Assembly: GCF_006385135.1 (NCBI RefSeq)
Contig: NZ_CP041025.1
Span: forward strand, 1,829,501-1,893,500
Source: Paremcibacter congregatus
GTDB taxonomy: Bacteria > Pseudomonadota > Alphaproteobacteria > Sphingomonadales > Emcibacteraceae
Reading direction: 5' to 3'
DNA: 64,000 nt
In this document: one piece after another, positions 9,486 to 27,257 of the stretch
How positions within the stretch are numbered: the stretch's first letter is position 1
Layout: the number at the start of each line of letters is the position of its first letter
Program-made: the position numbers and the translations under genes
Notes under the pieces: generated by a model
Database searches by the model: none
What the model was told of the DNA's origin: nothing
The model's input: the letters and a program-made list of their open reading frames with translations, nothing else

Positions 9486-9728
9486 ATGCGCCCAGAACTT
9501 AAACACAGTATTCAACTTGTGCAGGTCGCCATCGGCGAACATCCGCTATTCGACAATATCCCCCGGGATCAACAAATTCTGGCCCTAATCACATTGGCCG
9601 CAGGACTTGCAAGAAGTCATTCCGAAGAACTGCTTGCCAACCAGTCCAAAAATTCACGCATGAAGTGGGCAGACATGACCGTCAGGACTCTTGTCCCTGA
9701 TTTAGGCAACGGGGAGTCCGCGCAATGA
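9486..9728 (+). CDS. Prophage 1-specific hypothetical protein, 80 residues
   Basis: A small, probably helical protein (MRPELKHSIQLVQVAIGEHP...). It begins directly after the previous stop and ends overlapping a tiny membrane ORF. It is absent from prophage 2. I do not recognise the family. Confidence 0.6.
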   Translation: MRPELKHSIQLVQVAIGEHPLFDNIPRDQQILALITLAAGLARSHSEELLANQSKNSRMKWADMTVRTLVPDLGNGESAQ

Positions 9729-9793
9729 CTTTGATCATTCTAGGGGTGTTTCTGACGGTTTTAGGTTTTGCCGGGGTATGGGGGCAAAAATGA
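9725..9793 (+). CDS. Prophage 1 tiny membrane peptide, 22 residues
   Basis: The ORF MTLIILGVFLTVLGFAGVWG plus two residues is nearly all one transmembrane segment. It is coupled by ATGA to the gene before and to Rep after it. The prophage 2 protein at 26821-27066 begins with a similar hydrophobic stretch (MTLTMLILGTLGVILSILGI), which supports this as a real gene. Function unknown. Confidence 0.45.
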   Translation: MTLIILGVFLTVLGFAGVWGQK

Positions 9794-11070
9794 CAAATCC
9801 CTTGAAAGGTACGCAAGTAGAGTTGCCGCCCTTGTTTTTAAAGGATAATTTGGAACAGCTAAACGGCGCTCAAAAAAGGGACCGGCTTCGCACTGTGGCC
9901 GGGCAAATTTTAACCGGGGAACGGGTTTATAAATGCGGTCGCCACCGGATCGGGGCGATTGTCACAATTTCCGCCAGTTCGACCGGCGCTATGTTCAACG
10001 GCGTGGAGACTTGCGGCTCGATCTGGCATTGCCCCGTATGCGCCGAAAAAATTTCCAATAAACGGCGGCTTGAAGTGGCGGCGGCGATTGATGGCACAAA
10101 AGAGCGCCGGGGCGGTGTCTATATGCTGACACTCACAATGAAACATGCGCCATTCGATAAATGCGCCGCCTTGAAGGACGCTGTCGCGATGGCGTGGCGC
10201 AAGCTGCAAAATACGCGTGCCTGGCGCAGTATAAAAGAGGATCGCCAAATTTTCGGCACGATCCGGGCGCTGGAAATCACCCATGGCGCGAATGGGTGGC
10301 ATCCGCATTTACATATCCTGCTTCTGACCGAAAACGAGTTGTCAGAACATGAACAGGAAGAAACCCGTCTTGAGATTTTCGAGCAATGGGACAAAAAGAT
10401 TTATGCTTTAACCGGGCAATATTGCCATGCTGACGCTTGCGATTTACGGCCAACAAATTCCTCTGAATATCTCACCAAAGGTGCGGATCGCAAGGCCGGA
10501 AAAATGAAATGGGGCGCGGATCGCGAGATATCAAAGGCCAATATCAAGCAAGGGAAGGGCGGTAAAACGCCTTTTGAACTGCTGGAAGCGGCCTATTATG
10601 GCAATCGTCAAGCCGCCGCTATGTTCGCAGAGTATGCCGCCGCCTTCAAAGGGGCGCGACATATCACATGGACCCACGGCTTAAAAGATTTCTTTGAGAT
10701 TGCCGAAATTCTTGACGAAAAAATAGCAGAGATTAGCCCGGAAAAAGTCGCCGGACAGGATGAATTGCCATTCAGTGAAGATTTAAATATGCGGATGATC
10801 GTCGCTCTGGATCGCGGCACGTGGGCGGCGGTTTGTCGCCACAATTTACGCCCTGATCTGCTGGACGCAGCCTACAAGCATGGCCGCGCCGGTGTGGTGG
10901 GGCTGCTCGCGAAATATGGCCTTTCGGTCTGGCTGGGCACCGGTCACATTAACGAAGATCAGACGAATGCGCAGTTTTCAAATGACGGAAAAGTAATTTT
11001 CAATCGAGTGACAGCAAGGCCGCCCCGCCTTACGGAAATGCCTCACTCTGCAACACCATGGAAGGATTAA
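9790..11070 (+). CDS. HUH-endonuclease replication initiator Rep (rolling circle), type A
   Basis: This Rep should nick one strand at the replication origin and start rolling-circle replication. A zinc-type cysteine pair occurs in CGSIWHCPVC (residues 75-84), the metal-binding HUH motif in HPHLHILL (His 173 and 175), and the likely catalytic Tyr 227 in EYLTKG; this layout is typical of plasmid Rep proteins of the CxxC/HUH group. I choose ATG 9790 because it overlaps the upstream stop (ATGA); ATG 9778 is possible and gives 430 residues instead of 426. Prophage 2 has a different Rep in the same slot. Confidence 0.85.
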   Translation: MTNPLKGTQVELPPLFLKDNLEQLNGAQKRDRLRTVAGQILTGERVYKCGRHRIGAIVTISASSTGAMFNGVETCGSIWHCPVCAEKISNKRRLEVAAAIDGTKERRGGVYMLTLTMKHAPFDKCAALKDAVAMAWRKLQNTRAWRSIKEDRQIFGTIRALEITHGANGWHPHLHILLLTENELSEHEQEETRLEIFEQWDKKIYALTGQYCHADACDLRPTNSSEYLTKGADRKAGKMKWGADREISKANIKQGKGGKTPFELLEAAYYGNRQAAAMFAEYAAAFKGARHITWTHGLKDFFEIAEILDEKIAEISPEKVAGQDELPFSEDLNMRMIVALDRGTWAAVCRHNLRPDLLDAAYKHGRAGVVGLLAKYGLSVWLGTGHINEDQTNAQFSNDGKVIFNRVTARPPRLTEMPHSATPWKD

Positions 11071-11071
11071 A

Positions 11072-11374
11072 ATGACTGTCACAAACGAAGTCATCGGCCA
11101 CACCCAATGCCCGGATTGCAAGGCTAAAGTTGAACGCCGGATCAATAAGAACCGAAAAGTCTACTGGCACTGCGATGGTCGGGCCGATGATCCGCAGTGC
11201 AACGCCGCGTTTAAACATGGTGCGGCCATGTCGAGACGCTTGATTGCCGCCGCCGCAAAACCTCAACCCTCAAACGACAACGAACCACAGGAGACTATTG
11301 AACATGAAGAAGACAACACCGCCAGCAAACGACAATCTGGAAATTCAGGACGCGCCGGAATTGGATGTTTCTGA
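11072..11374 (+). CDS. Prophage 1 zinc-ribbon-like protein, 100 residues
   Basis: The N-terminal half has CPDC (residues 13-16) and a later HC...C set, which looks like a small zinc ribbon; the C-terminal tail is low-complexity and polar. The first 80 bases differ synonymously from the prophage 2 copy (24564-24866), then identity resumes, so one edge of the replication-block exchange lies here. It could be a DNA-binding accessory or late regulator. Confidence 0.7.
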   Translation: MTVTNEVIGHTQCPDCKAKVERRINKNRKVYWHCDGRADDPQCNAAFKHGAAMSRRLIAAAAKPQPSNDNEPQETIEHEEDNTASKRQSGNSGRAGIGCF

Positions 11375-11855
11375 GGCTGACATTCTCGAAGAAATAAACT
11401 GGGACAATTCGACAGATCACCTTGACGAGATCACGCCGGAACCCGCCGCCGAGGATATGCCAGAATATGACAAAATATCGGGGCTTGATAAATCCGAGAT
11501 ATTTTCAAAGGAGGAGTTTTTCTCCGATTTTTTCTGTCAGAATCTGGTGCTTGCAGAACATCTCACGGGTTTGGTGGGCGTTTCTGTGGTCGTGTCAGAT
11601 GGTAAACCGGAAACCGGTGCGCGCGAAACGTCTGATTTGCTCTATGAACAGTGCCAGAAATTCCGCTTCCTGCAATGGGCGATTAAACGAGACGCGGCAT
11701 GGGTAACAAATGTTCTTCCCGTCGTGATTTTCGTTAAGGGCAAGGCCGATATCGTCGGAATGCAGCTTACGGCGCGCCGGGAAGCGGCAAAACGGGCGTC
11801 ACAGCAACCACAGGCGGCGAATGACAACAACGCGCCTATGGAAGAGGCCGTATGA
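11304..11855 (+). CDS. Prophage 1 conserved hypothetical protein, 183 residues
   Basis: I start it at ATG 11304, which has AGGAG nine bases upstream; the frame is open from 11244 but that part is overprinted on the zinc-ribbon gene. The N-terminal half is strongly acidic and probably disordered. The C-terminal half is compact and mixed (QWAIKRDAAWVTNVLPVVIF). It overlaps the ATPase by ATGA, so it may act with packaging or membrane assembly. Family not recognised. The copy in prophage 2 (24083-24634) is nearly identical. Confidence 0.7.
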   Translation: MKKTTPPANDNLEIQDAPELDVSEADILEEINWDNSTDHLDEITPEPAAEDMPEYDKISGLDKSEIFSKEEFFSDFFCQNLVLAEHLTGLVGVSVVVSDGKPETGARETSDLLYEQCQKFRFLQWAIKRDAAWVTNVLPVVIFVKGKADIVGMQLTARREAAKRASQQPQAANDNNAPMEEAV

Positions 11856-12511
11856 GCCAGCCGGTTCGGATAGGCATCTATGGCGCGTCAGGGTCGGGCA
11901 AGTCAACACTTGCCCGACACCTGATCAAGTCCGAAAAGCGCCTTGTGGTTTTTGATCCTGCTTTAGACTGGTCAAAGGAATTTTCCAAAAAGCGTGGATG
12001 GGAGGTCTGTCACACCATTGCCGCCGTTCGGGCGGCGCTCAAAAAGAAATGGAAGACCAGCTTTAAAATCATATTTGTGCCTGAAGGCGGTAACGAGATC
12101 GAAGATTTAGACAAGTTGTCTGGTCTGATCCTGCAAGCCCAGGGCATTTATTTTAAGGGCGTCAAAAATCATCCGCAGATTACTTTCGTCGTCGATGAGA
12201 TGAATACTTGTTTCCCCGTTTCTGGATTGAAATCCAATTTTAAACAGTTCGGCAATGTGTGCTCTCGGGGCCGTCACTATGGGATTAATACGTACGGCCT
12301 GACGCAACGCATTGCAGAGGTTCACACCAAATGGCGCGGCAACTGTTCGGCTATGTACATATTGCGGCTGGCCTCTGCGCGGGATCGCGACACGGTGCAG
12401 GGTGAAATCGGGCGGGAATATAAAAACACCATTATGTCATTGCAAAACTTCGACTTTTTGCTGTTTGAACAAGCCAGCGTGGTGCAGGGCAGGGTACCGA
12501 AACCAAAATAA
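11852..12511 (+). CDS. Packaging ATPase, FtsK/HerA-type (PM2 P9-like; also Zot-like)
   Basis: A 219-residue P-loop NTPase with Walker A GASGSGKST (residues 11-19), Walker B TFVVDE (111-116) and a downstream TQR (151-153) as in FtsK/HerA ATPases. Tailless membrane-containing phages use such ATPases to pump DNA into the capsid. Size and place, immediately before the capsid block, match PM2 P9. Zot of filamentous phages belongs to the same broad group, so the fold alone does not decide the phage type. The prophage 2 copy is at 23427-24086. Confidence 0.82.
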   Translation: MSQPVRIGIYGASGSGKSTLARHLIKSEKRLVVFDPALDWSKEFSKKRGWEVCHTIAAVRAALKKKWKTSFKIIFVPEGGNEIEDLDKLSGLILQAQGIYFKGVKNHPQITFVVDEMNTCFPVSGLKSNFKQFGNVCSRGRHYGINTYGLTQRIAEVHTKWRGNCSAMYILRLASARDRDTVQGEIGREYKNTIMSLQNFDFLLFEQASVVQGRVPKPK

Positions 12512-12869: not shown

Positions 12870-13715
12870 ATGCCCCAAGCTATTCGAATTGTCGAACCGG
12901 TCATGAATTCCTTCAGCGGCGTTGTCTCTGGTGGTCGTGCGGTTTTGGACGTTGATGTAATCGGCACCTACTACGGCAACATTTTGCATCATTCTTTCGG
13001 CGCGGTTCCGGTCCCCGCCACCAAGGCCAATTATATCACCAATGTGAAAAAAGTTGAAGTTTATCTAGGTGGAACGGTTCAAATGGAACTAACGCCCACC
13101 GAGATTATTTCAATGAATGAAGAAAAAGGCATCCCATGGAAAGACGGCATTTTGCCGCTGTTTTTCGCACAGCCGGACAGCCTGACGGCTATCGGCGAGG
13201 ACGGGACCAGCTGGGGCATGGCGGATATCAACAATTTCCAGATTGTTGTAACCTTTAATGCCGTGGTTAGCCCTTTGTTGTCGGCGTCTCGTATCTGGAG
13301 AAATGCCAACATCACCAACGGTGAAATCATCACAACGGACCGTGTCACGGTCAACTGTGCCGGTCTGGCTAAAAAAGTGGTCAATATCGAGTTTGAACTG
13401 GGGCGCGTGTTCAATGCGATTTACGCCTTCAGTGATAAAATTCTCGGTGTGAAGGCCTATGTTGGACAGGAGAAAATCTGTGACGCGTCAAAGGACACGC
13501 TTGATTTCCTCCGTGAAACCGCGGGCTATGCGCCTCAGTCTGATATCTTCGTCATGTCCGGTAAGCAGTTGACCGCGCGTTACACAGACGTGATCAATGG
13601 CCGAAATCCGATTGACCCCAACAAACCCCATAAACTGCGTCTCGAGTTTGAGTATGACGCCGGGGTGGTGGATCACGACTTGATCATTGAGCAGGTCGGT
13701 ATCAGAAAGGCTTAA
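12870..13715 (+). CDS. Major capsid protein, probable double jelly-roll (PM2 P2-like)
   Basis: A 281-residue, beta-rich protein without membrane segments, strongly translated from AGAAAGGG. Comparing from memory with PM2 P2 (269 residues), I see the same order of blocks: N-terminal GNS/GGR strand, NVKKVEVYLGG, GILPLFFAQPD, a FQIVVTFNA strand, PLLSASR, and in the second half GVKAYVGQEK, a TLDFLRETAGY helix and a C-terminal LRLEFEYDAG strand. This supports two jelly rolls but was not computed. The prophage 2 copy (22205-23050) has the same length with a few substitutions. Confidence 0.72.
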   Translation: MPQAIRIVEPVMNSFSGVVSGGRAVLDVDVIGTYYGNILHHSFGAVPVPATKANYITNVKKVEVYLGGTVQMELTPTEIISMNEEKGIPWKDGILPLFFAQPDSLTAIGEDGTSWGMADINNFQIVVTFNAVVSPLLSASRIWRNANITNGEIITTDRVTVNCAGLAKKVVNIEFELGRVFNAIYAFSDKILGVKAYVGQEKICDASKDTLDFLRETAGYAPQSDIFVMSGKQLTARYTDVINGRNPIDPNKPHKLRLEFEYDAGVVDHDLIIEQVGIRKA

Positions 13716-16333: not shown

Positions 16334-16467
16334 TGGATCAAATGCTATTATCAATTCTGTCAGGTGGAGCTGACTTTGCGACATACGGAATTTTATTCCT
16401 GTTCTGGCGCACAGATAAGCGGCTGACCGCCTTGGAGCACCACACAAGGATACACAAGGCATGTTAG
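16333..16467 (+). CDS. Prophage 1 small membrane protein, 44 residues
   Basis: One transmembrane segment (FATYGILFLFW) is followed by a charged tail (RTDKRLTALEHHTRIHKAC). The start overlaps the previous stop and the end overlaps the holin start. It could be a spanin-like or antiholin component; no motif confirms either. Confidence 0.58.
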   Translation: MDQMLLSILSGGADFATYGILFLFWRTDKRLTALEHHTRIHKAC

Positions 16468-16835
16468 GGCTTGATAAAATTCTCGGTGGTATTTTCGGCG
16501 TCATTGACAAGGTGGTACCAGACAAAGACCTTGCACAGAAAATCAAGTTCGATGTCCAGTCTCAGGCGCATTCTGGCGAGATGAAAGAGCTTGACGCCGC
16601 CATGAAAATCATCGTCGCGGAAGCCCAGGGCGGCGCATGGCTGCAACGCTCATGGCGTCCCTTGACGATGTTAACCTTCACCGGCCTGATTGTCGCTAAG
16701 TGGCTTGGCATGACGGCTCCGGGGATCACAGAGCAAATTGAACTTGAACTTTTCGCAATCATTAAAATTGGCCTTGGTGGGTATGTCTTTGGACGTTCCG
16801 CCGAAAAGGTCGCAACCGCATGGAAGGCAAAATAA
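16461..16835 (+). CDS. Holin of the 3TM/GTA holin type
   Basis: A 124-residue protein with a charged helical N-terminal part (VVPDKDLAQKIKFDVQ), the WLQRSWRPLTML motif and two hydrophobic segments (LTFTGLIVAKWLGM; LFAIIKIGLGGYVFGRSAEK). This pattern matches 3TM holins of gene transfer agents and small phages. It should form lesions that let the hydrolase reach the cell wall. The prophage 2 copy differs at two visible residues. Confidence 0.8.
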   Translation: MLGLDKILGGIFGVIDKVVPDKDLAQKIKFDVQSQAHSGEMKELDAAMKIIVAEAQGGAWLQRSWRPLTMLTFTGLIVAKWLGMTAPGITEQIELELFAIIKIGLGGYVFGRSAEKVATAWKAK

Positions 16836-17313: not shown

Positions 17314-17341
17314 AGGGTGTCCTTTAGGACGCTCTTTTTTT
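17314..17341. terminator. Bidirectional terminator between late genes and regulator, prophage 1
   Basis: The stem AGGGTGTCC pairs with GGACGCTCT (two G-U pairs) around TTTA and is followed by seven T; on the other strand the stem is followed by TTTT. It separates the plus-strand late operon from the minus-strand regulator gene. The equivalent at 18541-18572 has changed bases that keep the pairing. Confidence 0.75.
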
Positions 17342-17798
17342 ATGCTGCGGGGTTCAGGGGGACGTAATAGCCAGAAATGTGCAGTTTCCGAATAACCTGA
17401 TCCCGCCGATCTCCACGCTTCAGCATACCTTTTGCCAATTCAATCTTGCGCCGGGTCACATTATGATCAATCTCTTTTAAAATGGTGAGATCAGTCTGAA
17501 ATTTACGGATATACCGGGCTATGGTTTTGGGGTGATAATCAAGAACAGTTGCGATATGTTCAATACTGTAACCAGCCTGATATCGTGTCATGATAGCGCG
17601 TTGAAGTTTTAATTTTTGGAGCATTAGTTTTTCGGATTTTCGCAAATCTCGTTGCTCCGTCTTTTTTACTTGCACTTCACGTTGTTCGGCATCAACGGCC
17701 AGCCTTTCGACTGACTGCGCAAGGTTATTGATTAGTTTAGTTAACTGACGTAAGTCTCGGGCCGGCAAATGGTTTAATGTATTCAAGAGAGTACGCAT
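17340..17798 (-). CDS. Prophage 1 regulator with two helix-turn-helix segments, 152 residues
   Basis: The N-terminal half is a basic helical/coiled region (KTEQRDLRKSEKLMLQK). A first helix-turn-helix lies at YSIEHIATVLDYHPKTIARY and a second is possible near RRDQVIRKLHISGYYV. It has GGGGGAAAG as ribosome site. In the circular phage it would lie 17 bases downstream of the extended repressor reading frame, forming one leftward operon. Prophage 2 has a diverged protein of similar design at 18054. Role unknown; late or copy control is plausible. Confidence 0.65.
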   Translation of the reverse strand: MRTLLNTLNHLPARDLRQLTKLINNLAQSVERLAVDAEQREVQVKKTEQRDLRKSEKLMLQKLKLQRAIMTRYQAGYSIEHIATVLDYHPKTIARYIRKFQTDLTILKEIDHNVTRRKIELAKGMLKRGDRRDQVIRKLHISGYYVPLNPAA

Positions 17799-17888: not shown

Positions 17889-17916
17889 ATTTTCCATAAT
17901 ATAAATTATGCGCACT
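17889..17916 (+). other. Central dif-like site between the prophages; likely the active dif
   Basis: The arm ATTTTCCATAA, centre TATAAA and arm TTATGCGCACT match E. coli dif (reverse complement, recalled) at 24 of 28 positions. It is the only one of the three sites with two good arms. It is best read as a hybrid: left arm from phage 1, right arm from phage 2. It would be the site available for chromosome dimer resolution in this double lysogen. Confidence 0.8.
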
Positions 17917-18000
17917 CCGGAACTCTCTATCTCGTTTGTATAAAAGCCTTATTAACTTACTCTCCCCCGGCAAGTTGTTCGGTTTACGTTCTATTTACGG

Positions 18001-18047
18001 TTGATCCCTATGCTCCCCAACACTAAAATAACCTGTGTTTTGGGGAG
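18001..18047 (+). promoter_or_regulatory. Promoter and ribosome-site-masking hairpin for prophage 2 regulator
   Basis: TTGATC (18001-18006), a 17-base spacer and TAAAAT (18024-18029) make a candidate promoter. CTCCCCAA (18013-18020) pairs with TTGGGGAG (18040-18047), extended by CAC/GTG across a two-base bulge. The right arm holds the ribosome site GGGGAG of the TTG start at 18054. RNA starting at the local promoter lacks the left arm, whereas RNA arriving from upstream contains the full hairpin. Confidence 0.55.
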
Positions 18048-18053
18048 TAACAA

Positions 18054-18557
18054 TTGAGTAGAATTGATCCAGATATTCCCGGCCTGCCGTTCAGAAATTT
18101 TGAACATTCAGGCCGGGAACTTTTTTCTCAGGTAAATAAAATTCCACCTGAGGCCGCAAAATCCGTAGCAGAATTATTTGAAAAAATTGCAGGTGAATTA
18201 CATGAAGTTCATCAGACATTTTTACATCAAAAAGCTATAACAGCGGAAAGCAAAAAGAATATATTCAAACTCAAACAATTGCCTGTACAGGTGCAGGAAT
18301 GCCTCAACGTGGGCATGAGTTTTGAAGAAGCCGTATCTCACCTCAAGACCACCACAGGCGCGCCGCAAACAACCATTTATTCATACTGGTTAAGGCATAT
18401 CAAGCAACTCGAAAAAGATGCTTTTCAGGTGCGAGATAGGCAGGTTTGGGAAATGTACAATGAAGGATTGCCAGATCAAGAAATTGCCGATTTGTCGGAG
18501 CTGTCAAAGCGCCAAGTTCAGAGAATTATCCGCGAACATAAAAAAAGAGCGCCCTGA
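18054..18557 (+). CDS. Prophage 2 regulator with two helix-turn-helix segments, 167 residues
   Basis: It starts with TTG 18054 after GGGGAG. A helical N-terminal half is followed by a helix-turn-helix around MSFEEAVSHLKTTTGAPQTT and a second near the end (LPDQEIADLSELSKRQVQRI). Design and position match the prophage 1 regulator at 17340, with little direct identity. In the circular phage it lies 49 bases after the extended repressor frame. Its stop codon lies in the shared terminator. Function unknown. Confidence 0.62.
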   Translation: MSRIDPDIPGLPFRNFEHSGRELFSQVNKIPPEAAKSVAELFEKIAGELHEVHQTFLHQKAITAESKKNIFKLKQLPVQVQECLNVGMSFEEAVSHLKTTTGAPQTTIYSYWLRHIKQLEKDAFQVRDRQVWEMYNEGLPDQEIADLSELSKRQVQRIIREHKKRAP

Positions 18558-18572
18558 AGGACACCCTTTTCA
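18541..18572. terminator. Bidirectional terminator, prophage 2
   Basis: This is the counterpart of 17314-17341, read on the other strand: AGAGCGCCC and the ACACCCT side pair around a short loop with A/T runs on both sides. Two base changes against the prophage 1 copy keep the pairing. Confidence 0.7.
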
Positions 18573-18621
18573 ATTTTACCTACGCAAGATAATTACAAAA
18601 ATCCGCGAGGATCTCCTTATT

Positions 18622-18933
18622 TTATTGCGCGTAAATTAACCCAATTTTCCAGTACGTCAGATAAATGCCGAACACAAGAACGGTGATCACCGGCGCGTAT
18701 AAATCCCACCGATTATCCGGGTCTTTCCACCTCCACGGCAAAAGCGGCGCAATAAAGCTTAGGCTGGTGATCCCTAAGCCCATTTCAGCATCCCGGACCT
18801 CACGGCCATAATAATAGACCACCGGCAGCAAAGCCGCATAAATGACCACCGGCAAGGGCGGCACGATGTAATAGAAAATCGCCATCACAACGGCGGCAAT
18901 AAGGGCGTGGGGCCATGATTTAGGCTTGTACAT
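18622..18933 (-). CDS. Prophage 2 multi-spanning membrane protein, 103 residues
   Basis: Counterpart of 16948-17259, with two visible substitutions (WKWKD to WRWKD, FGFYL to FGIYL). It has three to four hydrophobic segments and is the last gene of the minus-strand late operon, before the terminator. Confidence 0.62.
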   Translation of the reverse strand: MYKPKSWPHALIAAVVMAIFYYIVPPLPVVIYAALLPVVYYYGREVRDAEMGLGITSLSFIAPLLPWRWKDPDNRWDLYAPVITVLVFGIYLTYWKIGLIYAQ

Positions 18934-19045
18934 CGGTATTCTCCTCTTCTTTGATAAACTTGCCATCAGCGCCACGTTTGCGGACAGTCTTGGTGGCTTC
19001 CTGTTTTTCTTCTCGAATAAATTTGTGTCGTCTCAGTCGTGCCAT
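18920..19045 (-). CDS. Prophage 2 small basic protein, 41 residues
   Basis: Counterpart of 16836-16961, with the same start directly after the holin stop and the same overlap with the next gene. It is highly charged, without membrane segment; function unknown. Confidence 0.5.
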   Translation of the reverse strand: MARLRRHKFIREEKQEATKTVRKRGADGKFIKEEENTDVQA

Positions 19046-19420
19046 TTATTTTGCCTTCCATGCGGTTGCGACCTTTTCGGCGGAACGTCCAAAGACATAC
19101 CCACCAAGGCCAATTTTAATGATTGCGAAAAGTTCAAGTTCAATTTGCTCTGTGATCCCCGGAGCCGTCACACCAAGCCACTTAGCGACAATCAGGCCGG
19201 TGAAGGTTAACATTGTCACGGGGCGCCATGAGCGTTGCAGCCATGCGCCGCCCTGGGCTTCCGCGACAATGATTTTCATGGCGGCGTCAAGCTCTTTCAT
19301 CTCGCCAGAATGCGCCTGAGACTGGACATCGAACTTGATTTTCTGTGCAAGGTCTTTGTCTGGTACCACCTTGTCAATGACGCCGAAAATACCACCGAGA
19401 ATTTTATCAAGCCCTAACAT
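19046..19420 (-). CDS. Prophage 2 3TM-type holin
   Basis: Counterpart of 16461-16835: 124 residues with the WLQRSWRPVTML motif and two hydrophobic segments. Visible differences are L to V and M to V around the first membrane segment. It overlaps the upstream small membrane gene by 7 bases. Confidence 0.8.
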   Translation of the reverse strand: MLGLDKILGGIFGVIDKVVPDKDLAQKIKFDVQSQAHSGEMKELDAAMKIIVAEAQGGAWLQRSWRPVTMLTFTGLIVAKWLGVTAPGITEQIELELFAIIKIGLGGYVFGRSAEKVATAWKAK

Positions 19421-19548
19421 GCCTTGTGTATCCTTGTGTGGTGCTCCAAGGCGGTCAGCCGCTTATCTGTGCGCCAGAACAGGAATAAAATTCCGTATGT
19501 CGCAAAGTCAGCTCCACCTGACAGAATTGATAATAGCATTTGATCCAT
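19414..19548 (-). CDS. Prophage 2 small membrane protein, 44 residues
   Basis: Counterpart of 16333-16467, with an identical protein: one transmembrane segment followed by a charged tail. It lies between the 56-residue membrane protein and the holin. Confidence 0.58.
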   Translation of the reverse strand: MDQMLLSILSGGADFATYGILFLFWRTDKRLTALEHHTRIHKAC

Positions 19549-19718
19549 TAGCCGGTTACCTTCTTCAGCATAGACTTGCCGGAAGGTGTCGCTAGCAGCC
19601 AATAGGCCACACCGCCGACCATGACCACCCGAATGAGTGATTTCGTCCCGTCAGCCGCGAACCAGCCGCCGCCAAAGCCCAAAAGTGACGCAATGCCACC
19701 AACCAACAATAAAGGCAT
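19548..19718 (-). CDS. Prophage 2 lysis-cassette membrane protein, 56 residues
   Basis: Counterpart of 16163-16333, with two hydrophobic stretches and a basic C-terminus; the protein is identical. Confidence 0.62.
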   Translation of the reverse strand: MPLLLVGGIASLLGFGGGWFAADGTKSLIRVVMVGGVAYWLLATPSGKSMLKKVTG

Positions 19719-19719
19719 A

Positions 19720-20184
19720 TTATGCACTCCTGTAAAAAATGTGATCGCCGACAATGGCGGTTTTGGGCATGTCACTCGCCCAATATGGCAAAATTGCCGC
19801 CGTGTGATAATGATCCGCGCCGCCCGTGTTATCGGCGACCTTCCCCGTCATGATCTGATTGGCCAATCGCAAAGCTTCCGCAAACTGTGGGTCTTTATCC
19901 GTCACGGCCATCATTTTAGCCCGGTTCGGGTCGCCAATATTCCAAGCTGAAAATTGCATATCCTTGGTGATCACATCGACCACCGACCGACCAAACCAGC
20001 CGCCCCGATCCGCCCGGTTTTTAATCACGTTGCCAATGGCAAGCATTCCGGCTTTTCCTTGGTTGCGCCCCTCGCCCCACATGGTCCGGGCCATAAGATC
20101 AATCGTGTTTTTCATATAGAAATACCTTCCAACGCCTGCGCCGACAACGGCTATGAGTAAAATATTTTTGACGCTATAGAACAT
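19720..20184 (-). CDS. Prophage 2 SleB-like cell-wall hydrolase
   Basis: Counterpart of 15697-16161. It has the same signal anchor, the same MARTMWGEGRNQ catalytic start and the same overlap with the upstream spike candidate gene. ATG at 20187 is an alternative start. Confidence 0.82.
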   Translation of the reverse strand: MFYSVKNILLIAVVGAGVGRYFYMKNTIDLMARTMWGEGRNQGKAGMLAIGNVIKNRADRGGWFGRSVVDVITKDMQFSAWNIGDPNRAKMMAVTDKDPQFAEALRLANQIMTGKVADNTGGADHYHTAAILPYWASDMPKTAIVGDHIFYRSA

Positions 20185-20815
20185 CATATGACACGTTAAT
20201 ATACGCGGTTGCGCCCCCCCCGAAATAAAGAGTAAGACCATTGCCCGAGGGGATAAAAATTTCACGACTGAGCCGCAACGCATCGCCTGCGAGCTGGGAT
20301 AACAATAAAATTGTTGATCCACCAGCGGCGCGGTCTGACAAAATATTGATATTTCCAGAGACAGACTGTTGAATGAGTGCGGTTCTTAAAAAGATACCAT
20401 TTGTATTTGCAGCTTTAGAAACGACGACCTCCGTATACACGCCTGTCCGCTCTAACTCTAAATTTACAGATCCAATCGACGCAACACTCCCCCCCTCATC
20501 AGATAACGGACGCCCAACTGTTCCAACTGTTCCGATAATTGAAGTGCCTGTTTCGATACTCCTACCTTCTTGAAACTCCATTCCAGCCGGGGCGGTGTAT
20601 ATCTTATAGTCAATAGGCGTGGAATGAGGATTTGAAATATCAACATTATCAAAATTATATTTCGCGGGGACGCCCCGGTACATGCGGAATTTAGATAAAT
20701 TTTTAAACTTCACCTCAATATATTCGAGGTCACATTCCATTATAAAAATCTGGCTGTGAGCCCCGACACCAATTGTTCGCCACTCGCCCGGCTGTAGTGT
20801 GCCTTCATGTAACAT
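20174..20815 (-). CDS. Prophage 2 spike/receptor-binding candidate, 213 residues
   Basis: Counterpart of 15066-15707; I see one residue changed (GAGAHS to GVGAHS). It is beta-rich, with no membrane segment. The near-identity means both phages should have the same host range if this is the receptor-binding protein. Confidence 0.5.
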   Translation of the reverse strand: MLHEGTLQPGEWRTIGVGAHSQIFIMECDLEYIEVKFKNLSKFRMYRGVPAKYNFDNVDISNPHSTPIDYKIYTAPAGMEFQEGRSIETGTSIIGTVGTVGRPLSDEGGSVASIGSVNLELERTGVYTEVVVSKAANTNGIFLRTALIQQSVSGNINILSDRAAGGSTILLLSQLAGDALRLSREIFIPSGNGLTLYFGGGATAYINVSYDVL

Positions 20816-20816
20816 T

Positions 20817-21326
20817 TTATTTGTTCCTGTTTATATAAGCCATAATTAAAAGCAGAGCGGCCAAGCCAATGCCGCTATATTTTAAGAGGTCTTTCCCCGC
20901 ATCAATGACACCGCCCGCCGTGGAATTGAACGCCTGAGATAGGGCGGAACTTGAGGCGGAGATACTTTCCCCAGCGATATTTTCCGCGAAATTAAAAGCA
21001 TCCTCAACGATGCCCGCATCAACAGAGGTCACAGAGACATTTCCACCCGCCTGAATGGCACCATCTCCCAGATCATTCCGGGTTGAGCTGTCAATCTCAT
21101 AATCAATGTCGTTCCGGGTTGAGCTATCAATTTCATAGTCGATATCATTGCGGACTGAGTTATCAATTTTATAGTCGAACTCATTACGGACCGAATTATC
21201 AATATCCTGCCGATAATCGAAATCATTGCGGACGGAATTATCAATTTCATAGTCATTTTCGTTAATGACGCGGTTATCATATTGCCCGGTCGACGTGCTG
21301 TTACTGCTAGATGATTTACCGCCCAT
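20817..21326 (-). CDS. Prophage 2 repeat-containing membrane-anchored protein, 169 residues
   Basis: Counterpart of 14597-15064, with five 12-residue repeats instead of four; one repeat carries a two-residue insertion (FDYRQDIDNSVRNE). The C-terminal membrane anchor is conserved. The 14-residue difference accounts for the 42-base offset between the two prophages in this region. Confidence 0.65.
   Translation of the reverse strand: MGGKSSSSNSTSTGQYDNRVINENDYEIDNSVRNDFDYRQDIDNSVRNEFDYKIDNSVRNDIDYEIDSSTRNDIDYEIDSSTRNDLGDGAIQAGGNVSVTSVDAGIVEDAFNFAENIAGESISASSSALSQAFNSTAGGVIDAGKDLLKYSGIGLAALLLIMAYINRNK
21071..21256 (-). repeat. Five tandem 12-codon repeats
   Basis: The units read xDYEIDNSVRNx, with the terminal unit IDYEIDSSTRND present twice, indicating a recent duplication of that unit compared with prophage 1. 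Confidence 0.85.
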
Positions 21327-21742
21327 TACAAGACCTTCCGCATAGTGATTTCGTCGGGATCGCCGTCATCAATTTCAATGTATCCGCGCCCCTGTGCAAC
21401 CAGCGCCAGCGGTTCACGCTTTGTGTGGAAACGTACAGACTGTTCCCCGTTCCGCCCCGCCAAGCCTTCCAGAAATTCAAGCATCAAGGGAACCAGCCGT
21501 TGACCGCGATAAGAGCCGCCACCGGCGACGATAACCATCTCAGAGCCATGAGGTTGAACCTCACGCCTTAAAGCCAGTGAGCCGACCCGCAAGCCGTCGA
21601 TCAGGACGGAAAAAACAGACAAGCGCCCGGCGCGCACTTCCCGACGATAAAAACCGGGCACACCGTTATGGGAGAAATCTTTGAAATCTGATTTTGCCCT
21701 GTCATCCAGCGCGCCGATATTTTTTATTTCAATAGCCGCCAT
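21326..21742 (-). CDS. Prophage 2 GNAT-like protein, 138 residues
   Basis: Counterpart of 14178-14594. Differences cluster in the N-terminal third (HNGVPGFYRREVRAG against HNGTASFYRREVVAG), while the C-terminal two thirds are the same. Acetyltransferase assignment is tentative. Confidence 0.55.
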   Translation of the reverse strand: MAAIEIKNIGALDDRAKSDFKDFSHNGVPGFYRREVRAGRLSVFSVLIDGLRVGSLALRREVQPHGSEMVIVAGGGSYRGQRLVPLMLEFLEGLAGRNGEQSVRFHTKREPLALVAQGRGYIEIDDGDPDEITMRKVL

Positions 21743-21918
21743 ATGATAAAACCCGCCGCCGCCAGAGCACCAACCGGAAGAATGAGACCAATAAGTTTAT
21801 TGCTTGCTGGCTCAGTTCCGAAAGCACCCGTGTTGAATGAAAAGCTATTTTGACCTCTTGCTTCGGACGGTCCCGCATCGCCGCCCGAAACACTGAGTTT
21901 AGGTATGGGGGCAACCAC
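21724..21918 (-). CDS. Prophage 2 virion membrane protein candidate, 64 residues
   Basis: Counterpart of 14002-14196, with a diverged N-terminal dozen residues and an identical C-terminal membrane segment. Confidence 0.62.
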   Translation of the reverse strand: MVAPIPKLSVSGGDAGPSEARGQNSFSFNTGAFGTEPASNKLIGLILPVGALAAAGFIIWRLLK

Positions 21919-22202
21919 TATTTAGCCACCTTGAGGATGACCAATAGCGCCGCCAGTCCCGCAAAGGCAAACAGGCCATATTTCACCAGATCAGAATTTT
22001 GACTTTCTGCCCGTGGAGTGTCCGCGATTGCCTGATTGGTGACAGCGGCGTTATACTGCGCCGCCAGTCGCCGCTCTTCATCCAGTTGATTAGATGACCA
22101 TTTGAAGTCTAGGTATTTGCTGCCAAGGTTTCCCGCAGCATTTACCAGATCACCAAAAAAACCCCCGGCGCTATAGCTTTCAACGCTTGCTTCTTCAGCC
22201 AT
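21918..22202 (-). CDS. Prophage 2 virion membrane protein candidate, 94 residues
   Basis: Counterpart of 13718-14002. The N-terminal 70 residues are nearly identical; the membrane segment end differs (ALLVILKVAK against ALLIMVKAIK). Confidence 0.65.
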   Translation of the reverse strand: MAEEASVESYSAGGFFGDLVNAAGNLGSKYLDFKWSSNQLDEERRLAAQYNAAVTNQAIADTPRAESQNSDLVKYGLFAFAGLAALLVILKVAK

Positions 22203-22204
22203 GA

Positions 22205-23050
22205 TTAAGCCTTTCTGATACCGACCTGCTCAATGATCAAGTCGTGATCCACCACCCCGGCGTCATACTCAAACTCGAGACGCAGTTTATGGGGTTTGTT
22301 GGGGTCAATCGGATTTCGGCCATTGATCACGTCTGTGTAACGTGCGGTCAATTGCTTGCCGGAAAGAACGAAAATATCCGCTTGAGGAGAATAACCAGCG
22401 GTTTCACGGAGGAAATCAAGCGTGTCCTTTGACGCGTCACATATTTTTTCCTGTCCAACATAGGCCTTCACGCCAAGTATTTTATCACTGAAGGCGTAAA
22501 TCGCATTGAACACGCGGCCCAGTTCAAACTCGATATTGACCACTTTTTTAGCCAGCCCCGCACAGTTGACCGTGACACGGTCCGTTGTGATGATTTCGCC
22601 GTTCGTGATATTGGCATTTCTCCAGATACGCGACGCCGACAATAGAGGGCTGGTTACGGCATTGAAGGTTACGACAATTTGGAAATTGTTGATATCCGCC
22701 ATGCCCCAACTGGTCCCGTCCTCGCCGATAGCTGTCAAGCTGTCAGGCTGCGAGAAAAACAGCGGTAAAATGCCGTCTTTCCATGGAATGCCTTTTTCTT
22801 CATTCATTGAAATAATCTCAGCGGGCGTCAATTCCATCTGAACCGTCCCACCTAGATAAACTTCAATTTTTTTCACATTGGTGATATAATTGGCCTTGGT
22901 GGCAGGGACAGGAACCGCGCCGAAAGAATGATGTAAAATGTTGCCGTAATAGGTGCCGATGACATCGACATCCAGAACCGCACGACCGCCAGAGACAACG
23001 CCGCTGAAAGAATTCATGACCGGTTCGACAATTCGAATAGCTTGAGGCAT
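22205..23050 (-). CDS. Prophage 2 major capsid protein (PM2 P2-like)
   Basis: Counterpart of 12870-13715, with the same 281 residues and a few conservative changes (KVEVY/KIEVY, FFAQ/FFSQ, AVVS/AVTS, APQSDIFVM/SPQADIFVL). Mixed capsids in a doubly induced cell are conceivable. The basis for the double jelly-roll call is given with the prophage 1 copy. Confidence 0.72.
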   Translation of the reverse strand: MPQAIRIVEPVMNSFSGVVSGGRAVLDVDVIGTYYGNILHHSFGAVPVPATKANYITNVKKIEVYLGGTVQMELTPAEIISMNEEKGIPWKDGILPLFFSQPDSLTAIGEDGTSWGMADINNFQIVVTFNAVTSPLLSASRIWRNANITNGEIITTDRVTVNCAGLAKKVVNIEFELGRVFNAIYAFSDKILGVKAYVGQEKICDASKDTLDFLRETAGYSPQADIFVLSGKQLTARYTDVINGRNPIDPNKPHKLRLEFEYDAGVVDHDLIIEQVGIRKA

Positions 23051-23067
23051 AGGAGCCCTTTCTCTAT

Positions 23068-23093
23068 ATTAAACGTTAAAATTAAACGTTAAA
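23068..23093 (-). repeat. Two tandem 13-base copies upstream of prophage 2 capsid gene
   Basis: The unit ATTAAACGTTAAA occurs twice in direct succession between the small membrane gene and the capsid ribosome site. Prophage 1 lacks the duplication. It lengthens the AT-rich capsid leader. Confidence 0.7.
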
Positions 23094-23094
23094 A

Positions 23095-23217
23095 TTAACC
23101 GCCGAAACCTTCGTGCGCATCTTTGATGAGCGGCAAGTCTTTGCCATATTGCAGGAGAAGCCCGGCAGCAATGATAGCGGCGACAGTAAACAGGACGCCC
23201 TTAATCTGGTTGTTCAT
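23095..23217 (-). CDS. Prophage 2 small membrane protein, 40 residues
   Basis: Counterpart of 12721-12843: one membrane segment and a charged tail ending in GFGG, directly upstream of the capsid gene. Confidence 0.65.
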   Translation of the reverse strand: MNNQIKGVLFTVAAIIAAGLLLQYGKDLPLIKDAHEGFGG

Positions 23218-23308
23218 TTTTCTCTCTTTCTCTTAACCACTTTTGTATGACGTAAAGCGTCAGCCCGGCCAGTACAGTTGTGTAAAAATTGTTCATATTC
23301 AGTTTCAT
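23201..23308 (-). CDS. Prophage 2 small membrane protein, 35 residues
   Basis: Counterpart of 12630-12737, again starting on the T-run of the terminator without a clear ribosome site. Conservation of the frame in both copies is weak support because the DNA is nearly identical. Confidence 0.4.
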   Translation of the reverse strand: MKLNMNNFYTTVLAGLTLYVIQKWLREREKNEQPD

Positions 23309-23341
23309 AAAAATAGGTCCACAAGTTACCCTGTAGACCTA
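23309..23341 (-). terminator. Intrinsic terminator between early and late genes, prophage 2
   Basis: Counterpart of 12597-12629: a 10-base stem with an 8-base loop followed, on the minus strand, by a T-run. Confidence 0.75.
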
Positions 23342-23380
23342 TTACGCATGATTTTAATGATGGTGGCAAATGGCTGATTT

Positions 23381-23407
23381 CCTACGTACGTACCTATATG
23401 TACGTAA
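23381..23407. promoter_or_regulatory. TACGTA cluster at early/late boundary, prophage 2
   Basis: Tandem TACGTA units around a TATATG centre, the counterpart of 12531-12557 with a slightly different middle. The outer units are conserved. Confidence 0.45.
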
Positions 23408-23426
23408 GAAAATTCACGATTTTTAA

Positions 23427-24086
23427 TTATTTTGGTTTCGGCACGCGCCCCTGCACCACGCTGGCTTGTTCAAACAGCAAATAGTCGAAGTTTCGCAATG
23501 ACATAATGGTGTTTTTATATTCGCGGCCGATTTCACCCTGCACCGTGTCGCGATCGCGCGCAGAGGCCAACCGCAATATGTACATAGCCGAACAGTTGCC
23601 GCGCCATTTGGTATGAACTTCTGCAATGCGCTGTGTCAGACCGTACGTATTAATCCCATAGTGACGGCCCCGAGAACAGATATTGCCAAACTGTTTAAAA
23701 TTGGCCTTCAATCCAGAAACAGGAAAGCAAGTGTTCATCTCATCAATCACGAATGTGATCTGAGGTTGATTTTTTTCGCCTGCAAAATATTTACTTTGCG
23801 CTTGCAAGATCAGGCGGGATAATTCATTTAAATCTTCTATCTCGTTACCACCTTCAGGCACAAATATGATTTTAAAGCTGGTCTTCCATTTCTTTTTGAG
23901 CGCCGCCCGAACGGCGGCAATGGTGTGACAGACCTCCCATCCACGCTTTTTGGAAAATTCCTTTGACCAATCTAAAGCAGGATCAAAAACCACAAGGCGC
24001 TTTTCGGACTTGATCAGGAATCGGGCAAGTGTTGACTTGCCCGACCCTGACGCGCCATAGATGCCGATCCGAACCGGCTGGCTCAT
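23427..24086 (-). CDS. Prophage 2 packaging ATPase, FtsK/HerA-type
   Basis: Counterpart of 11852-12511, with the same Walker A GASGSGKST and a Walker B written TFVIDE. More substitutions occur in the middle (KYFAGEKNQPQ against IYFKGVKNHPQ) than in other shared genes, so divergence here is uneven. Confidence 0.82.
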   Translation of the reverse strand: MSQPVRIGIYGASGSGKSTLARFLIKSEKRLVVFDPALDWSKEFSKKRGWEVCHTIAAVRAALKKKWKTSFKIIFVPEGGNEIEDLNELSRLILQAQSKYFAGEKNQPQITFVIDEMNTCFPVSGLKANFKQFGNICSRGRHYGINTYGLTQRIAEVHTKWRGNCSAMYILRLASARDRDTVQGEIGREYKNTIMSLRNFDYLLFEQASVVQGRVPKPK

Positions 24087-24634
24087 ACGGCTTCTTCCAT
24101 AGGCGCGTTGTTGTCATTCGCCGCCTGTGGTTGCTGTGACGCCCGTTTTACCGCTTCCCGGCGCGCAGCAAGCTGCATTCCGACGATATCGGCCTTGCCC
24201 TTAACAAAAATCACGACGGGAAGAACATTCGTTACCCATGCCGCGTCTCGTTTGATCGCCCATTGCAGGAAGCGGAATTTCTGGCATTGTTCATAGAGCA
24301 AATCAGACGTTTCGCGCGCGCCGGCTTCCGGTTTACCATCGGACACGACCACAGAAACGCCCACCAGACCCGTGAGATGTTCGGCAAGCACCAAATTCTG
24401 ACAGAAAAAATCGGAGAAAAACTCCTCCTTTGAAAATATCTCGGATTTATCAAGCCCCGATATTTTGTCATATTCTGGCATATCCTCGGCGGCGGGTTCC
24501 GGCGTGATCTCGTCAAGATGATCCGTCGAATTGTCCCAGTTCATTTCTTCGAGAATGTCAGCCTCAGAAACATCCAATTCCGGCGCGTCCTGAATTTCCA
24601 GATTGTCGTTTGCTGGCGGTGTTGTCTTCTTCAT
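24083..24634 (-). CDS. Prophage 2 conserved hypothetical protein, 183 residues
   Basis: Counterpart of 11304-11855, with an acidic N-terminal half and compact C-terminal half; five or so visible substitutions. Start at ATG 24634 after AGGAG. Confidence 0.7.
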   Translation of the reverse strand: MKKTTPPANDNLEIQDAPELDVSEADILEEMNWDNSTDHLDEITPEPAAEDMPEYDKISGLDKSEIFSKEEFFSDFFCQNLVLAEHLTGLVGVSVVVSDGKPEAGARETSDLLYEQCQKFRFLQWAIKRDAAWVTNVLPVVIFVKGKADIVGMQLAARREAVKRASQQPQAANDNNAPMEEAV

Positions 24635-24866
24635 GTTCAATAGTCTCCTGTGGTTCGTTGTCGTTTGAGGGTTGAGGTTTTGCGGCGGCGGCAATCAAGC
24701 GTCTCGACATGGCCGCACCATGTTTAAACGCGGCGTTGCACTGCGGATCATCGGCCCGACCATCGCAGTGCCAGTAGACTTTTCGGTTTTTATTTATCCG
24801 GCGTTCAACTTTTGCTTTACAATCCGGGCATTGAGTGTGGCCGATGACTTCATTGGTAACGGTCAT
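24564..24866 (-). CDS. Prophage 2 zinc-ribbon-like protein, 100 residues
   Basis: Counterpart of 11072-11374, with an identical protein. The first 80 bases carry many silent differences, marking the edge of the exchanged replication block. Confidence 0.7.
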   Translation of the reverse strand: MTVTNEVIGHTQCPDCKAKVERRINKNRKVYWHCDGRADDPQCNAAFKHGAAMSRRLIAAAAKPQPSNDNEPQETIEHEEDNTASKRQSGNSGRAGIGCF

Positions 24867-24881
24867 TCGAAAAATCTCCTG

Positions 24882-26213
24882 TTAATTCAGCGCGGGGGCT
24901 ATCGGGTTTTGTGGGTAGGTCGGGGTGATATTTGGTAAAAGTTCCCCTTGCCGTCTGTGGCCGGATTTTTTGCGAGTTTTCTTTCTCGACTGCCGGACAG
25001 TTGTCGTAGTTGTGTGCCTCATAGAGGCCGTACGGCGCGCCCAAATGTCACGGGCCTTGCCGATCAAGTCTTTAATACCTTCCCGCTCCACAAGACGATC
25101 TATGTCGCCATCAAAATTATGAACGACCAAACACGGCTCGAATTGATTGCTAAATTTAGGTGACGGGTTCGTTATCGCCATGAGAACGTTATCAACGTCC
25201 CCGCCAGACTCGTCAGAGCGCGCCCTAGTGCCCGGTTTCGCTTTTTCTATAACACGCCACTGCCAATCCGTTTCCGCCTCTGTGGTGGCCTCCGTGAGTC
25301 CCTTAGGCGGCAATTTCACCAGCTTCATTTTATTGTCGTTCAATTCTTTGCGGAAAGCCCGGATTTCTCCGAGCGGATGAAAGAATTTCAGGCGGAATGT
25401 CTGGTGAAACAATTCGGCAAGCTCTGGATCGGTCAGTGCGTTAAATTCAGAGGGCTTGAAAACATACTTCACGCATTCCTGTACGTTTTTGATTTTGCTG
25501 TCATGCAGGTAGCCTTTAGGGAATTGTGACGCGCACCACTTCATAAAAGCCAGCCACTTTTGAGGCCCGAGTTTCTTTGTCGCTTTGATCAGCACATGGG
25601 AATGCATATTCAGCTGAGGCTCATCCCCTTCCCGCTTGATCGTGTTTTCAATATTGTAATAGACCAGCTCAACGCCAGCCTCTTTGACCTTCTCATGTGA
25701 CCCGAATTTTGAAATCAGGCGGGTAAACGTCTTGTGGGCTTCCCGATACTCGTTCAACGGAACCCATCCGTTAGAGATGACCAGCATCCGAAGTTGATTT
25801 TTATTAGCGTTGTCGGCGAAGTATTTTACGTGACGGGAGATATCATGAATGTTTTTAGACTGCATGACAGGAATGATGTTTGTATTGCGATAAGAAATTA
25901 CCTTCTCAACAACGCCCGTGCAAATACCAATAGTAGACGTCTGTCCTTCGATCTTGGCCTTGATCCCCTGCCCTTCAAGCCGCTGTGCAATCGCTTCAGA
26001 TTGAGATTTTAAAGTATTGCCCTGGGCTTCTGATTTGGACCAGTCGTCTTGGGAGATTTCATAGCCGATAGTGTCCCGCCATAGTTCCGGAACCGTCACC
26101 ATGCTCAGGCGGGAAGCCCCTTTAAGCCGACCAACGCTAAAACCAAAATTTAAATCCCCGATCAGATTTTGACCGGAGATTTTGCTTTTGTAATGGGCAG
26201 CTACTTCACTCAT
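24882..26213 (-). CDS. HUH-endonuclease replication initiator Rep, type B (unlike the prophage 1 Rep)
   Basis: A 443-residue protein in the same slot as the prophage 1 Rep but without visible sequence similarity. The HUH motif is MHSHVLI (His 204 and 206) and the likely catalytic Tyr 250 lies in CVKYVFK. It lacks the CxxC zinc motif of the other Rep. A basic, poorly ordered C-terminal tail (RKKTRKKSGHRR) follows. The start overlaps the upstream stop (ATGA). Rolling-circle initiation is inferred from the HUH/Tyr layout. Confidence 0.78.
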   Translation of the reverse strand: MSEVAAHYKSKISGQNLIGDLNFGFSVGRLKGASRLSMVTVPELWRDTIGYEISQDDWSKSEAQGNTLKSQSEAIAQRLEGQGIKAKIEGQTSTIGICTGVVEKVISYRNTNIIPVMQSKNIHDISRHVKYFADNANKNQLRMLVISNGWVPLNEYREAHKTFTRLISKFGSHEKVKEAGVELVYYNIENTIKREGDEPQLNMHSHVLIKATKKLGPQKWLAFMKWCASQFPKGYLHDSKIKNVQECVKYVFKPSEFNALTDPELAELFHQTFRLKFFHPLGEIRAFRKELNDNKMKLVKLPPKGLTEATTEAETDWQWRVIEKAKPGTRARSDESGGDVDNVLMAITNPSPKFSNQFEPCLVVHNFDGDIDRLVEREGIKDLIGKARDIWARRTASMRHTTTTTVRQSRKKTRKKSGHRRQGELLPNITPTYPQNPIAPALN

Positions 26214-26461
26214 GCGGCGGCTTGTTCCCCGTTTTTAACATCAGTCCGCGCGGCTTCAAGTTGACAGATAAGACTTGAAATTTGCTCATCCGTAACACCA
26301 ATGCGTTGCACGAAGGGCGCACAAACCGAATGCGTATCAATTTCAAGATATAAATTGATCGTCTTGGTTGTCGCGCAGCCTGAGGCCCGAATAGAAGGTG
26401 TAATGTTTTTCATCAGGGGACCGCACCAAGTGCGCGGCAAAGGGATATATTCGTTATTCAT
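26210..26461 (-). CDS. Prophage 2-specific hypothetical protein, 83 residues
   Basis: A small soluble protein (MNNEYIPLPRTWCGPLMKN...) coupled by overlap to the DUF736 gene before it and the Rep after it. It is absent from prophage 1. Family not recognised; a role as Rep accessory is possible from context. Confidence 0.6.
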   Translation of the reverse strand: MNNEYIPLPRTWCGPLMKNITPSIRASGCATTKTINLYLEIDTHSVCAPFVQRIGVTDEQISSLICQLEAARTDVKNGEQAAA

Positions 26462-26802: not shown

Positions 26803-26820
26803 TGTTTTGTTTCCTTAAAA

Positions 26821-27066: not shown

Positions 27067-27257
27067 TCCGTCACCATCTCTTTCACCTGCAAAAAGAGGC
27101 TCTCAACATTAGGGTGTCCAAGCGGGCCAGAAAGTGAGCCATCGTATGTTTTTGCCGCTTCTGAATTTAACAACACTCTTATTTTGGTAAGGGTTTTAGC
27201 TTTGCAGTCACGATCCTTAAGCTTTACTACGGTATCCCGCCAGTATTTCTTACTCAT
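27063..27257 (-). CDS. Prophage 2 early hypothetical protein, 64 residues
   Basis: Counterpart of 8959-9153, with one visible change. It is the last shared early gene before the replication block. Confidence 0.7.
   Translation of the reverse strand: MSKKYWRDTVVKLKDRDCKAKTLTKIRVLLNSEAAKTYDGSLSGPLGHPNVESLFLQVKEMVTE

Follow-up and report, generated by a model that had tools for sequence, protein, structure and literature searches.

TLCphi-type IMEX (integrative mobile elements exploiting Xer) and the gonococcal genetic island (GGI) are among the described systems closest to the locus analysed here; they, like the other papers cited in this report, are drawn on through partial texts. When TLCphi integrates, XerD acts first and XerC finishes the reaction, independently of FtsK, at an attP whose XerD arm is degenerate (PMC4246890). 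The GGI has a similar site, and XerCD on that site cannot stop FtsK, which protects the island from excision (PMC5357621). In the tandem filamentous arrays CTXphi/TLCphi/RS1, UPphi and Ypfphi, several prophages share a rebuilt dif (PMC7307601, PMC5357621). Among tailless phages, the 10-kb PM2-like phages NO16/Asemoviridae have been proposed to enter dif by host XerCD, and a presumptive dif site of PM2 is printed in the same paper (PMC9966536). Some Vibrio tailless prophages at dif carry a dif-like motif that may restore dif (PMC11630473), dif use has been suggested for the tailless phage Jorvik (PMC10589892), and an early survey of PM2-like prophages reported integrases in some of them (PMC1950889). 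Insertions near the terminus carry polar motifs in the permissive orientation, for which KOPS of Salmonella and E. coli prophages are cited (PMC5993296).

The locus lies in a window of 64,000 nucleotides, positions 1829501-1893500 of a genome that forms a single 4,189,011-base contig. We consider it very probable that two related temperate phages of PM2-like type, P1 and P2, have entered the native dif of this chromosome, one on each side, using host XerC and XerD, and that M, the site between them, combines the XerD arm of P1 with the XerC arm of P2 and is the working dif. The sites and the two prophages are as follows.

7980..8007, minus strand: L, outer junction of P1; the XerD arm is the host's, the centre is that of M and the XerC arm is degenerate; 18.9 bits
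17889..17916, minus strand: M, intact dif-like site; 24/28 matches to E. coli dif, 44.8 bits
17889-17899: XerD arm of M, contiguous with P1
17900-17905: centre of M
17906-17916: XerC arm of M, contiguous with P2
28190..28217, minus strand: R, outer junction of P2; the XerD arm is degenerate, the centre is that of M and the XerC arm is the host's; 22.3 bits
7991..17905, plus strand: P1, PM2-like prophage between L and M, with an attP that keeps the XerD arm (type D); has matches for capsid, ATPase and Rep, and is homologous to P2 in inverted orientation
17900..28206, minus strand: P2, PM2-like prophage between M and R, with an attP that keeps the XerC arm (type C); homologous to P1 in inverted orientation

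Written with the XerD arm leftmost, L is ATTTACCATAA TATAAA TTGTGTCGTCA, with a good XerD and a poor XerC arm; M is ATTTTCCATAA TATAAA TTATGCGCACT, with both arms good; and R is TAGTTCCTAAC TATAAA TTATGCGCATA, with a poor XerD and a good XerC arm. The scores come from a 28-position weight matrix built from nine dif sites of related genomes, that is, 9 of 20 candidate rows, the other 11 having been dropped by eye for arms or a centre unlike dif. The next-best position in the window reaches 5.5 bits, the peak of a random control is 27.3 bits (six strand scans of three random 4.19-Mb Markov genomes), and the dif sites of the nine relatives score 37.2-47.6 bits in leave-one-out, a range into which M falls. 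Chance similarity is ruled out for M by its matrix score against the random genomes. The scores of L and R alone lie within the random range, so these two sites owe their credibility to position. Compared with E. coli dif over 28 positions on the minus strand, M has 24 matches, L has 20 and R has 17. An earlier note on this DNA had described M as having two good arms and 24 of 28 matches, L as degenerate on the XerC side and R as degenerate on the XerD side, and alignment and matrix agree with it on each point.

The same note had called M the only fully dif-like site and had named an independent dif elsewhere as one finding that would speak against its reading. Across the whole genome, E. coli dif with up to 3 mismatches has zero matches. 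A looser pattern matches at 0 mismatches only at M and at 2-3 mismatches in five other places, whose surroundings score at most 11.0 bits; its reversed control gives two matches too. The patterns covered the whole genome; matrix scoring took in the window, the loci of these hits and 20 sampled stretches. M thus stands as the sole fully dif-like site, and pattern searches of the 4.19-Mb genome found no independent dif. As far as its sequence tells, M is a real, well-formed hybrid dif of ordinary function and unusual origin.

P1 (9.9 kb) and P2 (10.3 kb) are related and lie in opposite orientation; the inverted blocks that they share measure 3.8 kb (92% identity), 2.7 kb (97.7%) and 0.6 kb (99.7%). 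Their identification rests on these genes:

9778..11070, plus strand: P1 replication protein; PF01446 Rep_1, E 8.6e-15
11852..12511, plus strand: P1 packaging ATPase; phrog_2666, E 2e-21
12870..13715, plus strand: P1 major capsid protein, a double jelly-roll protein of the PM2 P2 type; PF18628, E 2.1e-7, above its cut-off
16461..16835, plus strand: P1 holin-like protein; PF11351, E 1e-11
22205..23050, minus strand: P2 major capsid protein; 98% identical to the P1 capsid protein
24882..26213, minus strand: P2 protein at the Rep position; assigned by position, no Pfam match

The ATPase gene upstream of the capsid gene, the genome of about 10 kb and the gene order are those of PM2. PM2 and Cr39582 share with P1 the capsid fold family, the gene order and the size of about 10 kb, and in the presumptive dif site of both phages the XerD arm is intact and the XerC arm degenerate, as in P1, whereas capsid identity is low and the Rep of P1 is of another type (Rep_1). 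Since this Rep is not of the PM2 P12 type, we call the elements PM2-like and do not place them in Corticoviridae. The closest phage record to the P1 capsid protein is PG21, at 25% identity (tblastn); no relatives of the protein were found in a viral contig collection, no match in the PDB by sequence profile, and no near match of the prophage DNA in a phage collection. In tblastn the P1 Rep matches 20 phage records, mostly named Bifilivirus (e.g., Bifilivirus B5) or Inovirus. The product of 9778-11070 belongs to a tailless-phage-like element, yet its phage matches are mostly filamentous phages. PADLOC run on 10 ORFs returned no defence match.

P1 and P2 fit the description of IMEX: they sit at dif by way of a dif-like attP, have two dif-related flanks with a common centre, and no recombinase of their own was found. 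A profile search of the window found no XerD-family gene, Pfam scans of most ORFs found no serine recombinase, and the host XerC/XerD-like proteins had zero matches in tblastn against 13 prophages (the set described below). The genome has an XerD-like match of 323 bits and a second, XerC-like match of 225 bits, both outside the window and under the curated XerD cut-off; we read these two genes here as host XerD and XerC.

Three lines of observation identify the M locus as the native dif: synteny of a host gene in four relatives, GC skew and KOPS (GGGNAGGG), the last two converging at M. The features concerned are:

7230..7856, plus strand: host cyclophilin-type isomerase gene beside dif; PF00160; its counterpart adjoins dif in G003, G007, G013 and G014
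9343, 10552 and 12487 (9343..12494), plus strand: three KOPS in P1, all toward M
25626, 25966 and 26932 (25626..26939), minus strand: three KOPS in P2, all toward M

In the four relatives the isomerase is 70-76% identical and lies about 30-55 bp from a dif-like site; these genomes have no capsid-gene match, so their dif sites are empty of such phages. GC skew, taken over 20 stretches of 20 kb and the window, is positive in every piece left of M and negative right of it, and positive again in the final 20 kb of the contig. KOPS in the window number three forward in P1, three reverse in P2, eight reverse right of R and none left of L. M itself is a 28-bp site with both arms and a 6-bp centre like the dif of its lineage, in the position of the terminus. 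The right-hand kinase was also tried for synteny and proved uninformative, having too many paralogues.

Recombined at the shared centre, the flanks give two attachment sites of opposite design. attP1, ATTTTCCATAA TATAAA TTGTGTCGTCA, has a degenerate XerC arm (type D) and is the mirror of a TLCphi-type attP, while attP2, TAGTTCCTAAC TATAAA TTATGCGCACT, has an intact XerC arm and centre and a degenerate XerD arm (type C), as in TLCphi. Like TLCphi-type IMEX and the GGI, P2 and the other type C prophages do without their own integrase, combine a good XerC arm and centre with a degenerate XerD arm, and rebuild dif on integration (PMC4246890, PMC5357621); by analogy, type C fits the TLCphi/GGI scheme. 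P1 and the other type D prophages fall outside the three classes, CTXphi, VGJphi and TLCphi, of the review in the text available. Unlike TLCphi and the GGI, P1 and P2 are PM2-like tailless phages, two of them head-to-head. The filamentous arrays resemble the pair in sharing a rebuilt dif but are described, in the text available, as tandem repeats (PMC7307601, PMC5357621), whereas P1 and P2 lie in opposite orientation on either side of dif. The proposed use of host XerCD by NO16/Asemoviridae (PMC9966536) is like that of P1 and P2, whereas the Vibrio tailless dif prophages regularly come with integrases (PMC11630473, in the part available), none of which was found in P1 or P2.

We propose the following course of events. 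In each phage attP, one recombinase arm would be good and the other degenerate, with the common TATAAA centre between them; P1, keeping the XerD arm, would enter on the XerD side of dif, and P2, keeping the XerC arm, on the XerC side. Exchange by XerCD in the shared centre would yield an intact dif at the 3' end of the phage and leave its 5' end with a half-site that is disarmed. Once both phages are in place, a single intact dif, M, would stand between disarmed L and R, which carry the outer arms of the host. KOPS running through host and prophages would guide FtsK past L and R to a stop at M, where XerCD would resolve dimers. As both types disarm the outer junction, FtsK should run past L or R, whichever replichore it comes from, and halt at M.

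To place the two attachment types among relatives, the capsid protein was searched against overlapping sets of 32 family, 396 order, 389 class, 40 further-family and 385 more class genomes. This yielded 22 capsid-gene loci in 21 genomes, and all surroundings were inspected: 13 are resolved at both ends, 4 at one end and 5 at neither. Of the 13 resolved at both ends, P1, G019, G689, G471 and G796 are of type D, and P2, G016, G070, G402, G791, G805, G843 and G464 of type C. In all 13 resolved prophages the intact dif lies at the phage 3' end, in the direction of the capsid gene, and the degenerate site at the 5' end. Single prophages at dif show this layout in G019 (type D), G016 (type C) and nine further genomes, and the four loci resolved at one end (G054, G570, G780 and G481) are all consistent with the 3'-end rule. 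In G431, G542, G097, G833 and G819 no convincing site was found, the contig being short or ending near the gene in the last three. Atypical host arms in distant genomes, such as TTATCGGCGAA in G791, G796 and G805, were accepted because they recur, and these calls are softer. For both types, the rule that the intact site lies at the phage 3' end appears solid across these genomes.

The XerC arm TTATCGGCGAA is common to the intact sites of G791, G796 and G805 (loci L144, L145-L146 and L147-L148, respectively) and differs from E. coli dif; its sharing by three genomes of one genus suggests a lineage-specific dif.

Phage isolates carry comparable half-sites: in PM2, Cr39582 and GXT1010 the site is of type D and runs with the genes, and in NO16 it is of type C and runs against them. 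The best half-sites of the isolates score 25.3 and 21.7, where 100 random genomes reach 19.8 at most, while PG21, D526 and autolykivirus 1.249.A have no dif-like half-site. PM2 has long been treated as lytic; the rule predicts that it would integrate on the XerD side.

From their arms, we read each type as docking on one side of dif and extending that replichore, with the window as the case in which both sides appear filled. We lean, with some reserve, towards a wider interpretation, in which the two types are evolved mirror attP designs and dif is a two-slot dock: each phage would enter the replichore where its genes, GC skew and KOPS run toward dif, the outer junction would be disarmed, type D would be an undescribed, XerC-arm-deficient integration route, and a chromosome could come to use a dif made wholly of phage arms. 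Compared with the terminus insertions described before (PMC5993296, in the part available), the difference would be that, for either mirror type, it is the make-up of the attachment site that dictates the permissive orientation. Mirror types and polarity rule together suggest why tailless prophages at dif may be harmless, the replichore being lengthened and not interrupted. The hybrid dif may offer an entry to a general rule for tailless Xer-dependent prophages, by which the phage 3' end carries the intact arm and KOPS point to that end. In the literature searched, mostly open-access and in partial texts, we did not find the mirror attachment types, the 3'-end rule or a head-to-head pair, and the available parts of the NO16 and Vibrio tailless dif prophage papers (PMC9966536, PMC11630473) contain no KOPS analysis. 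What is new here is the two mirror attachment types in PM2-like elements, with the polarity rule.

Inside the 13 resolved prophages, 28 KOPS point toward the intact dif and none away. The outer flanks have 29 toward versus 2 away and the flanks beyond the intact site 36 versus 3, with only the outer flank counted for P1 and P2; read in gene direction, all 13 prophages have a positive GC skew. This polarity might be a by-product of G-rich coding strands and not of selection for FtsK guidance, a possibility we take seriously but think rather unlikely. The 41 other motifs of the same composition run with the genes too, 514 versus 147, two of these control motifs likewise have zero against, and Vibrio and Pseudoalteromonas isolates carry the site without KOPS. 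The KOPS excess is partly coding-strand bias. However, KOPS is the commonest of the 42 motifs, at 28 to 0, and an order-2 Markov null gives a mean of 8.7 and a maximum of 17 with the genes. With the control rate set at 0.78, the chance that all 28 of 28 run with the genes is about 0.0009, which is not a clean probability as the prophages are partly related. Selection on the prophage KOPS is likely rather than proven, given that the prophages are not all independent.

The composition of M follows from contiguity. Its left arm is contiguous with P1 and its right arm with P2; at L it is the left arm, and at R the right arm, that continues into host DNA. Given strand exchange in the common centre, M would be a P1-P2 hybrid, and the empty host site is reconstructed as ATTTACCATAA TATAAA TTATGCGCATA, which scores 45.8 bits and has the same XerD arm as G010 and G012. 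This arrangement is best read as a site made by two phages. Alternatively, M could be largely the host's own dif, one or both arms being host-derived and the prophages merely flanking it. M does score like the native dif sites known from the genus, and with some IMEX one arm of the rebuilt site is still the host's, but we judge this improbable: complementary good XerD (L) and XerC (R) arms lie at the host edges and join into that 45.8-bit site, the joined site has the XerD arm of two relatives, and exchange in the shared centre would move both arms of M with the phage DNA.

It is more doubtful still that L or R is also a working dif and M not uniquely needed. Each retains one good arm and the centre, and XerCD can act on sites with a degenerate XerD arm in TLCphi (PMC4246890) and the GGI (PMC5357621), in the texts available; yet L and R score only 19-22 bits, within reach of the best random score, the prophage KOPS point beyond them to M, and a GGI-type site failed to stop FtsK in vitro (PMC5357621, in the part available). 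That the pair is an inverted duplication of one prophage and not the result of two integrations is scarcely credible, for although P1 and P2 share long inverted blocks that are 92-99.7% identical, they fail to align in the replication region and at both ends, the HTH genes adjoining M are only 16% identical, the attP types are opposite, and P1 and P2 each have a same-type relative that is a single prophage at dif in another genus (G019 and G016).

With the hybrid origin of M preferred, dimer resolution in this chromosome probably uses a dif made by phages. The earlier note had proposed just this, and the native locus, the switch of skew and KOPS, and the contiguity of the arms with P1 and P2 lend it support. 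Its corollary, that losing one prophage would alter the site, holds in the sense that a few bases would change, but the fragility it implied does not: the predicted sites score 43.1 bits with P1 lost, 47.4 with P2 lost and 45.8 with both lost, about as high as M. Losing either prophage should leave an intact dif, with few bases changed and its completeness kept. An essential chromosomal site could, by this route, be overtaken piecemeal by viruses without being lost.

The shared blocks of the two prophages show further features. The inverted arms 14675-17350 and 18530-21206 (2.7 kb, 97.7%) flank a 1.2-kb spacer that contains M; homologous recombination between them would flip dif relative to L and R, and the excision of both prophages could then be locked. 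The 612-bp segments 8544-9155 and 27061-27672, 99.7% identical, lie beside non-aligning stretches, and this block looks like a recent exchange between P1 and P2. A 36-bp tandem repeat in a late gene has 3.8 copies in P1 (14672-14808) and 4.9 in P2 (21072-21254).

In the circle closed at attP, read in gene direction, the late genes are followed by an antisense HTH gene, the intact arm, the centre, the degenerate arm and the early genes. The genes on either side of attP are:

17340..17798, minus strand: P1 HTH gene adjoining M; PF13936 HTH_38, E 1.3e-7
18054..18557, plus strand: P2 HTH gene adjoining M; weak HTH_23 match; 50% identical to the gene beside the intact site of G016
7982..8386, minus strand: P1 gene with the degenerate arm in its 3' end; homologous in P2, G019 and G016
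27778..28275, plus strand: P2 gene with the degenerate arm in its 3' end; weakly CI-repressor-like, E 0.073, under the cut-off

The degenerate-arm gene reads outward, and the copies of P1, G019 and G016 are 43-51% identical to that of P2; as it reads out through the arm, integration changes its C-terminus. An antisense gene of 150-180 codons lies beside the intact arm in all eight prophages examined (P1, P2, G019, G016, G070, G402, G689 and G805), with HTH matches in most. The gene of P1 resembles that of G019, and those of P2, G016 and G070 resemble one another; that of G689, a type D prophage, resembles the type C set, so the HTH gene family and attP type are not strictly linked. We propose the antisense HTH gene as a candidate that may help to control Xer recombination.

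TLCphi encodes an Xer-activating protein, XafT, related to DUF3653. The HTH genes were considered as XafT homologues, and homology is not claimed: the DUF3653 match of PM2 gp a is sub-threshold, and the P1 and P2 HTH genes have none. XafT is named in PMC9765430 (seen in part), and a literature search on it gave only unrelated papers among the matches listed. In the prophages of G070 and G016 (L161 11795-12529 and L162 2150-2917, respectively), an ORF beside the HTH gene resembles, by eye, a Dam-type adenine methylase.
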